A program made the translations under genes and the position numbers. Below are positions 15,806-36,810 of a DNA stretch of 50,632 nt, one piece after another (within the stretch, counting starts at the first letter, position 1; every line of letters begins with the position of its first letter). This DNA comes from Erysipelotrichaceae bacterium (lineage in GTDB: Bacteria > Bacillota_I > Bacilli_A > Erysipelotrichales > Erysipelotrichaceae): assembly GCA_022767445.1 (NCBI GenBank), contig JALENJ010000059.1, positions 1-50,632 on the forward strand. The letters run 5' to 3'. The notes below the pieces were generated by a model, which was given only the letters and a program-made list of their open reading frames with translations, did no database searches and was not told the origin of the DNA.

Positions 15806-16203
15806 ATGAAAACAATCTTAAGAAACACAACAGTCTTTACGCGAAAGGGTTTTGAGAAGATGGATATCGCTACCTTCGGTGATAGACTTCTTGTCCTATT
15901 TGGTGTTTCAGACATTGTTCAAAGTGACGATATCATTTTTGACTTCGACAATAAATATATTTTACCGGGTTTCGTTGATGTACATGTACATTTCCGTGAG
16001 CCCGGCTTTTCTTATAAAGAAATGATCGACACAGGTTCAATGACGGCTGCACATGCAGGATTGACAACAGTATTTACGATGCTTAACTTAAATCCACCTA
16101 CTTGTAATTATGCAAGCCTCAAACAACAACTCGATCTCATTGAAAAGTTATCGCTACATTCGTAGATGGAGAACTCGTCTATCAAGACGAGAAAGAAAGA
16201 TAA
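15806..16203 (+). pseudogene. pyrC: Dihydroorotase pyrC with a large internal deletion
   Basis: The first about 113 residues are a normal dihydroorotase start: strand-rich region, zinc motif DVHVHFREPGFSYKEM and SMTAAHAGLTTVFTMLN. At about 16143-16150 the sequence jumps to the gene's own C-terminus in another frame (KVIATFVDGELVYQDEKER, stop at 16201-16203). The translated frame stops at 16163-16165. An intact dihydroorotase has about 420 residues, so roughly 290 are missing, including the remaining zinc ligands and active-site Asp. The ribosome site and promoter are intact, so the remnant may still be transcribed with pyrK and pyrD. Confidence 0.92.
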
Positions 16204-18164: not shown

Positions 18165-19271
18165 TTAGATGGATTTTTGTAGTAGTTCAATGATTTCTTG
18201 TTTTGGCTTAGATGAGCGTGCGGTGACGATCTTTGGTGATCCACCACCACTAGCTTCTAATGATTCTTGGATAGCTGCGTAGATATCTCTTGCCTTACCC
18301 TCAGGTGAGATAATCGCAATATTTGTTGTCCCATCTTGTGATGTGATTAAGACCTTTGTAGATGTTAAAGAATTGAGTAAGCTTTGTGCGACATTACGCA
18401 TACTATTAACATCGACAACATCCACTAGAATCGTATCTTCTAGTTTGAGGATGTCCTGTACTTTGTAGGCTGTTAATTGTTTTTGTAGTTCATCAATTTC
18501 TTTCTTATACGCTTTGTTTGAATCACGTAATGTCTGTACGCTATCTACGATTTCATCTTCCTTCGCATTTAAGACTTTGTGCATATCTTGAATCATGGTG
18601 TAATACTTCTTAAGTCTTTGATTGGTTGCTAGAGAGACTGTTGTGTATACACGTGTACCACGTGAAGTCTTTTCACTACCTAAGATGACGAAGCTACCAA
18701 TTTGGTTGACATTATCAACATGTAATGTACCGCATGGTTGTGAGTCTAAACCACCAAATGTTACGACTCTAACTTGTTCGTGGTTCGCATATTTTTGATC
18801 AGGATATTCACTTCCTTTATAGTAGGTGAATGTAGATGGAATATCCTGTAGTAAAGCATTGTTCATAAAAGTTTGTAGGGTATTGAGGTGTTGTTCATCA
18901 ATATCCTTACTATTCACTTCAAACCACTCATTATCAGGATTGACACCAACCGCAACAAGATACATACCTAACTTTTCATAATATCCATCTAATAGATGGA
19001 AGGCACTTTGTACAGTTGTGTTTGTAATTCTAGTTTCTGGATCAACTTCCATATGAATTGGATTTTCTAGTTTTCCATCTACTTTGTGGTAGAGAACATC
19101 ATCTTCCCATTTTAAGTCAATGACTTGCAGACCATTAATGGTACCTTTATCGGCTAGCATACCACCTTTTTCTCCATAGAAGATTGTTTCTTCGAAGACG
19201 TAGTAGCCGTCTTTTTCTTCTTTGATCGTTGTATCAAGGTTAAATTTTAACCATGCATCAATATATGACAT
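18165..19271 (-). CDS. Alanyl-tRNA-editing-like protein (AlaX-L type)
   Basis: AlaX proteins remove serine or glycine from mischarged tRNA-Ala. The 368-residue product has a small barrel domain with ETIFYGEKGGMLADKG (AlaRS form FYxExGGQxxDxG) and the editing core around residues 85-190. A coiled coil (about 235-270) and a DHHA1-like C-terminal domain with SLEASGGGSPK follow. Zinc ligands Cys180 and His184 (CGTLH) are present, but the HxxxH motif reads Gln88-x3-His92 (QSAFH), so one ligand is changed. There is no aminoacylation domain. A strong ribosome site (GGAGG) precedes the ATG. A deleted copy lies at 15448-15695. Confidence 0.85.
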   Translation of the reverse strand: MSYIDAWLKFNLDTTIKEEKDGYYVFEETIFYGEKGGMLADKGTINGLQVIDLKWEDDVLYHKVDGKLENPIHMEVDPETRITNTTVQSAFHLLDGYYEKLGMYLVAVGVNPDNEWFEVNSKDIDEQHLNTLQTFMNNALLQDIPSTFTYYKGSEYPDQKYANHEQVRVVTFGGLDSQPCGTLHVDNVNQIGSFVILGSEKTSRGTRVYTTVSLATNQRLKKYYTMIQDMHKVLNAKEDEIVDSVQTLRDSNKAYKKEIDELQKQLTAYKVQDILKLEDTILVDVVDVNSMRNVAQSLLNSLTSTKVLITSQDGTTNIAIISPEGKARDIYAAIQESLEASGGGSPKIVTARSSKPKQEIIELLQKSI

Positions 19272-19310
19272 TTTGTCCTCCTTTGTTTTCTAAATTATAT
19301 CATAAATAAC

Positions 19311-19319
19311 TGTTATAAT
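19311..19319 (+). promoter_or_regulatory. Extended -10 promoter seven bases from the GTPase-NYN start
   Basis: TGTTATAAT is a TG-n extended -10 element with a perfect TATAAT (19314-19319). There is no good -35 at 17 bases, which the TG can offset. Initiation about 6-7 bases downstream would fall on the ATG at 19326, and no ribosome binding site lies between, so the mRNA may be leaderless. Confidence 0.55.
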
Positions 19320-19325
19320 ATTTTC

Positions 19326-21830
19326 ATGGAAAGCAAGAGAAAAACAGTCATTGGTATACTGGCACATGTAGATGCTGGAAAGACTACATTGATCGAAAGT
19401 ATACTTTATAAAACAGGTGCGATACGTAATTTTGGTAGAGTAGATCACCAAGATTCCTTTTTTGATTATGATGAACAAGAAAGAGATAGAGGAATAACCA
19501 TCTACTCTAAGGAAGCACATTTTATCTATCAAGATGTTGAAGTTTATATTATCGATACTCCAGGTCACGTAGATTTTTCATCAGAGATGGAACGAACACT
19601 ATCCATACTGGATATGGCAGTACTGGTAATCAATGGACAAGATGGTGTACAGGCCCACACAGAGACAATCTGGAAGTGTTTAGAGTACTATCATGTTCCT
19701 GCTGTAGTATTTGTAAATAAAATGGATATTACACGTCTTAGCAAAGATGAACTCTTTTATGATGTGACAAAACAGCTTTCATCAACATGTATCGATTGGC
19801 AAAGTGATAATCGAAATGAAGAAATCAGTCTTTCTAGCGATGCATTACTAGAAGAGTTTGAAAAAGAAGGATCACTATCCAATGATTCTGTAATATCTAG
19901 TTTTTATCAACGCCAATTCTTTCCGTTGCTGTTTGGCTCTGCTTTGAAAGTGGAGGGGGTTGATACACTATTGGATGTCATCGCAAAACTATCACAGGAT
20001 AAGAAATATCCTGAAGAATTTGGTAGTCGCGTATACAAGATTACGATGGATGAAAACCACACACGATTAACCCACATGAAGATTACAGGTGGATGCTTAT
20101 ACGCAAAACAAAAGTTATCAGATGATGAAAAAGTCGATCAAATCCGTCTGTATCACGGCATCAGATATACATTGCTAGATAAAGCAGAAGCAGGTATGGT
20201 CGTAGCGATAAAGGGATTAAAACAGATTGAAGCGGGCGATGGCCTTGGCTTTGAACAGGATACAAGCAAGCCAATTTTAAATGCATACATGGACTATCAC
20301 ATAGTGTATCCAAGTGATTGCGACCTACTTGCGTTAAATCAAGCATGTCGTATCATCAGTGAAGAAGATCCTTCACTACAGATATGTATCCAAGAGAATA
20401 CACACCAAATCGATGTACATATCATGGGTGAGATGCAGATGGAAGTCTTGCAGAAACGCATCTTTGATGAATGTGGAATCTCCGTAGGGTTTACCAGCGG
20501 AAAGATTATCTATCTTGAAACGATACAAGAGACAACACGTGGTGTTGGTCACTTTGAACCACTACGACACTTTAGCGAAGTACAGGTACGTATTGAGCCT
20601 GTCAGTAGAGGAAAAGGAATTATCATCGCCAGTGAAACATTTTCAGACCAACTTTCCTTTAACTATCAAAACGCAATCCTATCCGCATTGCGTACAAAGA
20701 AACACCGTGGTGTATTAACAGGGAGCCAATTAACAGATGTTAAGATTACTCTAACAGCTGGTAAAGGTCACTTAAAACATACACAGGGTGGTGATTTCCG
20801 CCAAGCCGCAACACGGGCAGTTCGTCAAGCATTGATGAAAACCACATCGATTTTATTGGAACCATACGTACAGTTTAGCTTGAAGGTTCCAACAGAATCA
20901 CTATCTAAAGCATTGTTTGATTTAGAAAACAAAAAAGCTAAATTCGAGATTAAAGATAGTGATGGAGATATAAGTCAAATCCAAGGAAGAGGTAGCGTCA
21001 AAGAGTTGGCTCACTATCAAAACGAAGTGAGTGCATATACCAAGGGACTTGGTCGATTTGCCTACCAGATGGATGGATATGATATATGCATGAATCAAGA
21101 TGAAGTTATCAACAACATGCATTATGATCCTGAAGGTGATTTACGAAATCCTTCTTCATCTGTATTCTGTGCAAATGGTAGTGGTTTTACAGTAACTTGG
21201 GATAAGGTAGATGAATATCTAGGAATTGATGAAGTTAAGAAAGAATCTACATCAATTCACAGTAACAAGATACGTGTTGATGAAGATGAACTAAAGAGAA
21301 TCTTTGCTAGTTCAACTTCAAATAATCGTAATCCCAATAAACAAAAGCCAGAGAAAAAGAAGATCAAGGAAGAGAAACCAAGACAGATTATACATCTACA
21401 TAAATGTCTTATCATTGATGGATATAACATGATATTCTCTTGGGATATCTTCAAAGAATATCGTCAAGATGAATTGGCAATTTCACGTCAAAAGTTATTG
21501 GATATTTTGTATAATTATCAAGGATATACAAATGAGAAGATGATTGTGGTATTTGATGGTTATCGCGTGAAAGATAACCTTGGCACTGACTATCGTAAGA
21601 ATGATATGGAAGTCGTATATACCCACAGCAATGAAACTGCAGATGCGTATATCGAACGTCTCGTTTATGAAAACAAGAATCTCTACGATATGACTGTGGC
21701 AACCTCAGATGGACTGATCCAAAATGCAATCTTTGCCCAAGGTGCTAAACGCATGTCAGCAAGAGAATTCTACCAACAAATCAAATACGTAAATCAACAG
21801 ATTGATGAACAACTGGAACACAGGAGATAA
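19326..21830 (+). CDS. EF-G/Tet(M)-like GTPase fused to a Rae1-type NYN nuclease
   Basis: The 834-residue product joins two ribosome-acting modules. Residues 1 to about 640 follow EF-G/Tet(M) order: G1 AHVDAGKTT (13-21), G3 DTPGH (77-81), G4 NKMD (131-134), G5 region FGSAL, a beta-barrel domain 2, GEMQMEVLQKRI (domain III), and a domain IV/V part with GDFRQAATRAVRQAL and LLEPYVQFSLKVP as in ribosomal protection proteins. A Lys-rich linker (about 663-688) leads to a YacP/Rae1 NYN domain with acidic residues Asp698 (IIDGYNM), Asp744 (VFDGY), Glu770/Asp773 (ETAD) and Asp795 (ATSD). Rae1 cleaves mRNA in the ribosomal A site. The G1 motif starts at residue 13, so no later start is possible. tdk follows 2 bases on. 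Confidence 0.93.
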   Translation: MESKRKTVIGILAHVDAGKTTLIESILYKTGAIRNFGRVDHQDSFFDYDEQERDRGITIYSKEAHFIYQDVEVYIIDTPGHVDFSSEMERTLSILDMAVLVINGQDGVQAHTETIWKCLEYYHVPAVVFVNKMDITRLSKDELFYDVTKQLSSTCIDWQSDNRNEEISLSSDALLEEFEKEGSLSNDSVISSFYQRQFFPLLFGSALKVEGVDTLLDVIAKLSQDKKYPEEFGSRVYKITMDENHTRLTHMKITGGCLYAKQKLSDDEKVDQIRLYHGIRYTLLDKAEAGMVVAIKGLKQIEAGDGLGFEQDTSKPILNAYMDYHIVYPSDCDLLALNQACRIISEEDPSLQICIQENTHQIDVHIMGEMQMEVLQKRIFDECGISVGFTSGKIIYLETIQETTRGVGHFEPLRHFSEVQVRIEPVSRGKGIIIASETFSDQLSFNYQNAILSALRTKKHRGVLTGSQLTDVKITLTAGKGHLKHTQGGDFRQAATRAVRQALMKTTSILLEPYVQFSLKVPTESLSKALFDLENKKAKFEIKDSDGDISQIQGRGSVKELAHYQNEVSAYTKGLGRFAYQMDGYDICMNQDEVINNMHYDPEGDLRNPSSSVFCANGSGFTVTWDKVDEYLGIDEVKKESTSIHSNKIRVDEDELKRIFASSTSNNRNPNKQKPEKKKIKEEKPRQIIHLHKCLIIDGYNMIFSWDIFKEYRQDELAISRQKLLDILYNYQGYTNEKMIVVFDGYRVKDNLGTDYRKNDMEVVYTHSNETADAYIERLVYENKNLYDMTVATSDGLIQNAIFAQGAKRMSAREFYQQIKYVNQQIDEQLEHRR

Positions 21831-35264: not shown

Positions 35265-36810
35265 GTGTGACGGGCATGTCGCAAATCTAACTGGTGAAAG
35301 TCCAGTCGTAGGTAGTTACCGCCAAGCGTAGCGAACCACAAGCTGTAAGCCGTGAGGCTTTGGGTGAAGGAAGTGGTGTAGCGATTCTTTCGAGGTTACG
35401 AACAGAAATCTGATATAAGGCTTCAGGTGGGTGAGATAGCTATACAAATCGAAGCTCAAAAGGTAAACGTAAAACCAAAACAGTAAATCAGGAACTTGTG
35501 AAAGAAGAGAGAAAGGTATGTGACTTACTTGTGAGGTCTTGTGGACGATGAATCCTAGACGTTTTCAAACAACTATAGTAGCATCGGTCGGAAAAGGTCT
35601 ATCACAAGAAGTCAGCTGAGCCCATAGTAGGTATACACCAAGACTGAAGGGGGGTTAATGTTTGTATAGTGCAAATCACTATATGTAGGAAAATGAATAC
35701 TCTGGAATTGAGATATCACCTAGAACCATAGAACGTAACTATGGATGGTGAAAAGGCAAGAAGAGAATTTCATTATTTGTGCAATAGAAGGAGGAGCAGC
35801 CATGGAATTAATGGACAAGATTCTAAGTCAAAAGAACTTACAAGAGGCGATGAAAAGAGTCAAGAGTAATCCAACAAGCAGTGGCACAAGTGTTTAGTGA
35901 ACTCTATGACGAGTGCTTTAGTGAGCATAGTTACGGATTCAGACCAAACAGAAGTTTCCACCAAGCGATGGAGAAAGTAAAAGATGATGTAACGCTACAT
36001 CTCGTAAGGACCTTTTTGAGGGCTGGAATCATGGAAGATGGAATCATCCACAGAAATGAAGAAGGTGTTCCACAAGGAGGTCTGCACAGTCCAATATTAT
36101 CCAATATCTACCTAGATAGGTTAGATAAGGAACTGGAAAGCAGAGGGCTAAGATTCGTAAGATGCGCAGATGACTGTAATATCTTCGTGAAGAGTGAGAT
36201 GTTAGCCAACAGAGTCATGAAGTCTGTATCAAGTTGGCTAGAAAGAAAACTGTTTCTAAAGGTCAACATGACAAAAACAAAAGTAGTAAGACCTAGCAAT
36301 AGTTCGTTTCTTGGCTTCACGTTCTGGAAAAACAAAGATGGATGGAAAAGTATGCCTACATACGATAGAAAAAAACTATGTAAGAAAATAAAAGAAGTGC
36401 TATGCCGTAAAAAGGCAAGTGCACTTCCTTTATCGACTGTATTCACCCAAGTAAACCAAATCGTGAGAGGATGGATAAACTACTTCAGGATTGGTTCGAT
36501 GAAGACCTTCTTAAAAGAATTTAAAGAATGGTTGCGACACAAGATACGTGTGATAATTCTAAAACAGTGGAAGAAACCAAAACGTATCTATATCGACAGG
36601 CAAATGGAAACACAATAAACTTCTTATTGAGTCCAAAGGTACTATCGATGAAAAGCAAAGACAGACCGGGATTAATCAATCCACTAGAATATTATCAATC
36701 TAAGTAAAGGTAGAAACAATACAAATGTAGCGCCGTATACGAGACCCGTATGTACGGTGCAATGAGAGGGTCGAGGAATACTGGATAAGATATTCTCACT
36801 CTACTCTATT
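35265..36810 (+). mobile_element. Group II intron with decayed reverse transcriptase
   Basis: The 5' end GTGTG (35265-35269) matches the GUGYG consensus. The next bases contain the well-known bacterial domain I segment with ACTGGTGAAAGTCCAGTCG. The ribozyme part fills 35265-35801, and the reverse transcriptase gene lies in domain IV. Domain V is at about 36729-36762 (GCGCCGTATAC pairing with GTATGTACGGTGC), and domain VI follows with a probable bulged branch A near 36792. The 3' end CTACTCTAT lies at about 36801-36809. The element sits between the gmk terminator and the galactoside operon promoter. The protein is defective, so it could move only with help. Confidence 0.9.
35802..36707 (+). 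pseudogene. Group II intron reverse transcriptase/maturase, broken
   Basis: The ATG at 35802 has GGAGGAG upstream and begins MELMDKILSQKNLQEAMKR. It then loses about 80 residues and the frame near 35875 (stop at 35895). The next frame resumes at AQVFSELYDECFSEHSYG and FRPNRSFHQA. A second, in-frame loss after KVKDDV removes the part with the first catalytic Asp residues. GVPQGGLHSPILSN is present, but the YADD active site reads CADD (VRCADDCNIF). A third break near 36618 precedes the C-terminus NFLLSPKVLSMKSKDRPGLI. At least three lesions make a functional enzyme very unlikely. Confidence 0.92.

Follow-up and report, generated by a model that had tools for sequence, protein, structure and literature searches.

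The window analysed here is a 50,632-nucleotide stretch of DNA from a gut bacterium of the Erysipelotrichaceae. A gene at positions 19326-21830 of its forward strand starts with ATG and runs as a single frame of 834 amino acids, in which a translational GTPase is followed by a linker and a YacP/Rae1-type NYN domain. The features of this locus, with residue numbers in brackets, are listed below.

19314..19319, + strand: TATAAT, 6 nt 5' of the ATG and without a Shine-Dalgarno sequence, a possible leaderless promoter (sequence inspection)
19326..21830, + strand: fusion gene, 834 aa, translational GTPase + linker + YacP/Rae1 NYN (ORF and Pfam)
19344..19991, + strand: G domain (7-222), GTP_EFTU at 2.5e-52 and GTPase motifs
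20028..20486, + strand: domains II and III (235-307, 329-387), EF-G_D2 (sub-threshold) and EFG_III
20499..20843, + strand: domain IV (392-506) with the family-specific tip loops GxGHFEPLRHYAEV and HxKHTEGGDFR (EFG_IV; alignment with Tet and EF-G)
20853..21095, + strand: domain V (510-590), EFG_C
21123..21224, + strand: conserved C-terminal extension (600-633), Y-D..D-x-NPxxSVFCxxGxGFxVxWxxVxxxMH, common to unfused sister GTPases
21225..21407, + strand: Lys-rich, low-confidence linker (634-694), pLDDT below 50 for 635-689 (also composition)
21276..21320, + strand: short linker motif (651-665), consensus [VI]SEEELxRI[F]..TYG (conservation in bits)
21408..21821, + strand: YacP/Rae1 NYN ribonuclease domain (695-832) with Asp698, Asp744, Asp773 and Asp795 (NYN_YacP; Rae1 alignment; fold match)

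In the window protein, GTP_EFTU, EFG_III, EFG_IV, EFG_C and NYN_YacP all score above their Pfam cut-offs, and EF-G_D2 (235-307) falls below, at 21.8 against 27. The features of an EF2-type GTPase are present, namely the complete set of G1-G5 motifs (AHVDAGKTT, RGITI, DTPGH, NKMD, GSA), the catalytic His of DTPGH, and domains II-V. A first-pass annotation, made from the sequence alone, had described one 834-residue frame with EF-G-type GTPase motifs, a Lys-rich linker and a complete NYN domain; Pfam and the motif check agree, and the region between the C-terminal extension and the NYN averages 20% Lys across the fusion family. Residues 635-689 of the linker are predicted to be disordered. The linker motif, located about 45 residues before the NYN Asp, reaches 2-3.5 bits against 0.5-1.2 in the remaining linker and is present in all deletion variants, including the NYN-only genes described below. 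In a full-length AlphaFold model the individual domains are reasonable; its global arrangement is poor (pTM 0.40, rmsd about 25-30 A to EF-G chains), and the arrangement of domains and the docking of the NYN in this model were left out of the interpretation.

In the region corresponding to window positions 19310-19328, 12 of 27 homologues of the same genus carry a TATAAT-like box 4-14 nt before the ATG (mean 3 and maximum 7 after shuffling), and only 2 carry a Shine-Dalgarno sequence. These observations suggest that the mRNA of the fusion gene may be leaderless. No conserved operon was found: the alaX-like, tdk, MATE and pyrD neighbours of the window are not kept beside homologues, except for unrelated MATE matches. 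PADLOC gave no match to a defence system. The gene divergent and upstream of the fusion (18165-19271, - strand) encodes an AlaX-like protein with a tRNA_SAD domain and is not kept there in homologues. Elsewhere in the window, an apparent pyrC remnant at 15806-16200 consists of a 119-aa N-terminal part followed by an apparent C-terminal tail in another frame; pyrK and pyrD downstream of it are intact. RNA signatures of a group II intron (Rfam RF02001, RF01998) were found at 35346-35652.

The NYN domain is closely related to Rae1. PF05991 matches residues 695-832 with E 1.1e-43 and 149.5 bits (cut-off 24.6), covering positions 1-140 of 166, and the best solved relative of residues 695-829 in a sequence search is Rae1/YacP of Bacillus subtilis (E 1.3e-23). 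A model of the last 204 residues superimposes on Rae1 5MQ9 with Z 19.7 over 133 residues at an rmsd of 1.8 A; in the fold search, the next-best chain outside Rae1 reaches Z 9.4 and protein-only RNase P about 7. Asp698, Asp744, Glu770/Asp773 and Asp795 align to D7, D53, E78/D81 and D104 of B. subtilis Rae1. All of these had been named as the acidic residues of the domain in the first-pass annotation. The four Asp are 100% conserved in 77 fusions and invariant also in 22 stand-alone NYNs; Glu770 did not stand, since this position is Gln in 71% of the fusions.

According to published descriptions, Rae1 cleaves mRNA endonucleolytically within the A site of the ribosome (PMC12320835; also PMC6613710). 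Loss of rae1 suppresses an efp mutant (PMC6613710), which links Rae1 to pausing. The B. subtilis protein (PDB 5MQ8, 5MQ9) has the NYN fold and the catalytic Asp in common with the window NYN; however, it is a stand-alone protein encoded in an operon with yacO. In the window, by contrast, the NYN is joined to a GTPase and comes with an additional linker motif, and the C-terminal tail of Rae1 is missing. By alignment and fold match, this tail (about residues 144-170) is absent from the window protein, which ends at the equivalent of residue ~143. The tail lies outside the Pfam definition of the PF05991 domain, but it is part of Rae1 itself, and the missense change R166P in it behaves as loss of function in B. 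subtilis (PMC6613710). Many Clostridia fusions keep the C-terminal NYN tail (profile to 164-166). S1025 in yrzI and bmrCD are known targets of Rae1.

The fusion is widespread and maintained. PF05991 has one match in the window's own genome, the fused copy, and one match each in 52 of 60 relatives, almost always within an unbroken frame of about 830-880 aa. In the more complete genomes among the relatives without an NYN, the best match to the body is merely an ordinary EF-G; thus, the two halves were lost together. Between homologue pairs, dN/dS lies at 0.03-0.17 in the body and at 0-0.19 in the NYN, and both halves are under purifying selection. The same GTPase-NYN architecture recurs across Clostridia, where 343 genomes from the class of G494 (a Clostridia MAG) were sampled. 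PF05991 scored above its cut-off in 216 of them, and fused or unfused status was assigned by searching with the body and checking again those genomes that had stayed unresolved. The domain pair was found as a fusion in 119 genomes, and a stand-alone NYN, mostly of 160-216 aa, in 98. Just one of the 119 fused genomes (G778) has both, against 97 of the 224 non-fused genomes with a stand-alone NYN, in counts that ignore relatedness. The first-pass supposition that genomes with the fusion would lack a stand-alone yacP therefore holds. Second NYN copies in G614, G668 and G702 proved on recheck to be sub-threshold noise, lowering the double carriers from 4 to 1.

An unfused sister GTPase of about 655 aa occurs in 22 of the Clostridia genomes, none of which has the fusion. 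A stand-alone NYN accompanies it in 16 of the 22, and the other 6 are without any NYN. The co-occurrence (16/22 versus 81/202, Fisher p 0.005, relatedness ignored) is only suggestive. The fusion replaces both the stand-alone NYN and the unfused GTPase. That it almost always takes the place of a separate nuclease across a large group of Firmicutes suggests that the two halves work together.

A natural deletion series is found in one related genus (g19), where the full fusion, about 815-870 aa long, is the form in most species. The frames of L091 and L113 contain G-II-III and then the linker and NYN, domains IV and V being missing. These two are sisters (100% SH-aLRT), so the loss of domains IV-V was probably one event seen in two assemblies. 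L114 and L115 retain only the linker and NYN, and no body was found elsewhere in either genome. The genes flanking these NYN-only copies match those around the full fusion in L123, which indicates that the GTPase half was lost in place.

The reading we favour, at about even confidence, is that the fusion is the Rae1 of this lineage, an mRNA endonuclease that depends on the ribosome and forms one chain with a dedicated translational GTPase. The match to Rae1 in sequence and fold, the invariant catalytic Asp and the low dN/dS of both halves argue for it; so do the exclusion of stand-alone NYN and unfused GTPase by the fusion and the retention of the NYN where the body was lost. For this protein we infer nuclease activity, ribosome binding, A-site cutting, GTP gating and an order of events, in which docking on paused ribosomes is most likely helped or gated by the attached GTPase. 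With GTP bound, the body would dock on a paused ribosome at its factor-binding site, and the family-specific tip of domain IV would probe the A site. Once GTP had been hydrolysed or domain IV had withdrawn, the flexible tether, roughly 60-90 residues long, would allow the NYN to reach and cut mRNA lying in the emptied A site or close to it. Cutting is placed after the departure of domain IV because domain IV and the NYN could not fill the A site together. The truncated message would then be open to degradation, and other rescue systems would clear the ribosome. The earlier description of a self-contained rescue factor thus goes too far; cutting by the NYN would at most feed those other systems.

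Several points weigh against the Rae1 reading. The hand-over between domain IV and the NYN must be assumed, and in two species the NYN persists without any GTPase, which shows that it can do without the body. The exclusion counts take no account of phylogeny, and the full-length model is poorly arranged overall. The window NYN also lacks the tail in which R166P behaves as loss of function (PMC6613710). This absence would fit a GTPase that has taken over part of ribosome binding, but such an idea offers no account of how the NYN-only genes manage without either. A more specific and more tentative proposal is a GTP-delivered A-site nuclease: the GTPase may pass a paused ribosome's A site on to the nuclease tethered to it, the nuclease may replace domain IV in L091 and L113 (a G-II-III-nuclease factor), and in other Firmicutes the unfused GTPase and stand-alone Rae1 may form this machine as two proteins. 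For the question of how Rae1-type nucleases select stalled ribosomes, one fused chain replacing a separate Rae1 and a separate GTPase points to a GTPase partner. This partnership becomes directly testable, also in species with both proteins unfused, and the natural deletion series provides ready-made constructs.

The main rival, possible but on the whole unlikely, is that the halves are tethered but independent. The NYN would be an ordinary Rae1 and the GTPase would have a separate job, such as a translocation-like or recycling step, with the fusion only keeping both on the ribosome and co-expressed. The persistence of the NYN alone at the fusion locus in two species is consistent with this, as are the 6 Clostridia genomes with an unfused GTPase and no NYN and the length and predicted disorder of the linker. 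However, both separate genes are excluded by the fusion, and two species that have lost domains IV-V still keep GTPase and NYN linked, suggesting that the coupling is important in itself.

An improbable alternative is that the fusion protects ribosomes from tetracycline or some other A-site drug and that the nuclease contributes a further step. It derives from Atkinson 2015 (PMC4342817), who reported fusions of Tet and YacP NYN in ten Clostridiales, classed them as Tet and suggested RNase-based resistance. Tet(M) and Tet(O) are indeed the closest characterised relatives of the body: Tet(M) is the best solved relative of residues 9-589, identity to the two is 26%, and both have the G-II-III-IV-V architecture in common with the fusion body. 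Nevertheless, the window protein scores 399.8 bits on the tetracycline protection model NF012153, below the cut-off of 775, against 892 and 874 bits for the true tets L168 and L171. Domain IV of Tet(M) occupies the A site, and its Pro509 overlaps tetracycline (PMC7456112). An alignment of domain IV with Tet and EF-G showed that the Pro509-type loop III (SPVST) is absent from the window protein and its family; where Tet(M) has SPVSTPADFR, the tip reads HLKHTQGGDFR in the window and HxKHTEGGDFR in the family. The fusion thus differs from Tet(M)/Tet(O) in its domain IV tip loops, and also in its SVFC... C-terminal extension, its NYN and its separate clade. In addition, it is found in most of the order, and a true tet gene stands alongside it in some genomes (G034, G041, G042, G043, G047).

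EF-G also has its domain architecture in common with the fusion body. However, the window protein scores 259.9 on the EF-G model TIGR00484, below the equivalog cut-off of 659.4; the EF-G tip loop is SYHDVDSSE in place of the family's HxKHTEGGDFR, and a separate EF-G is encoded on contig C61 of the window genome. The unfused sister GTPase of Clostridia (e.g. L154, L161) has the tip signature and C-terminal extension of the fusion at 38-43% identity, but it stops after the MHC motif, without linker or NYN. In a quick tree with long branches, fused and unfused GTPases form one clade (99% SH-aLRT) apart from Tet (99%) and EF-G (100%). A fast-evolving genus is drawn to the base of this tree. As judged from sequence, the fusion GTPase is a subfamily separate from the tetracycline-protection proteins, and the first-pass wording that set it beside Tet(M) was not borne out. 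With its own clade, no Pro509 loop and a score far below the model cut-off, it does not belong among the tetracycline-resistance genes, for all its similar build. Judged by similarity, the family can easily pass for one of them, and its separation is useful for resistome annotation.

The domain architecture itself has been known since 2015 (PMC4342817), and the fusions reported then have the same domain order as the window, an EF-G/Tet-like GTPase followed by a YacP-like NYN. In contrast to their treatment as Tet with a possible role in resistance, the GTPase is placed here in a separate subfamily, and the fusion replaces stand-alone Rae1 and reaches Erysipelotrichales. As far as our searches reach, it is new how widely the family extends, that the fusion replaces the separate genes and that the GTPase stands apart from Tet; the unfused sister, the linker motif and the deletion series are likewise new. 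In agreement with the first-pass statement that no functional study of such a fusion was known, none was found in the open-licence papers searched.

Still less probable than tetracycline protection is rRNA or tRNA maturation on assembling ribosomes, the first proposal for NYN/YacP domains (Anantharaman and Aravind 2006). The fold group does take in protein-only RNase P, but Rae1, described as an mRNA endonuclease, is by a wide margin the nearest solved relative (Z 19.7 versus 9.4 for the next), and some related genomes have lost the gene, so it is dispensable. An artefact (assembly join, frameshift or decayed gene), for which broken frames in a few relatives could speak, is refuted by intact genes in dozens of genomes across two classes and dN/dS well under 1, and the joining of two genes by assembly error, considered in the first-pass annotation, is discounted by the same architecture in the 52 relatives.

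The broken frames occur in L092, L097 and L098, where body and NYN lie in separate frames owing to a frameshift or sequencing error; the NYN frame of L092 has no in-frame ATG 5' of the NYN. In L120 (5866-8157, + strand), a 764-aa fusion has a strongly diverged body and an intact NYN, and Pfam detects only its G domain and NYN. Three identical copies of the fusion spaced by exactly 71,006 bases were found in G894 (contig C1, 2304129-2446536) and are probably an assembly duplication.
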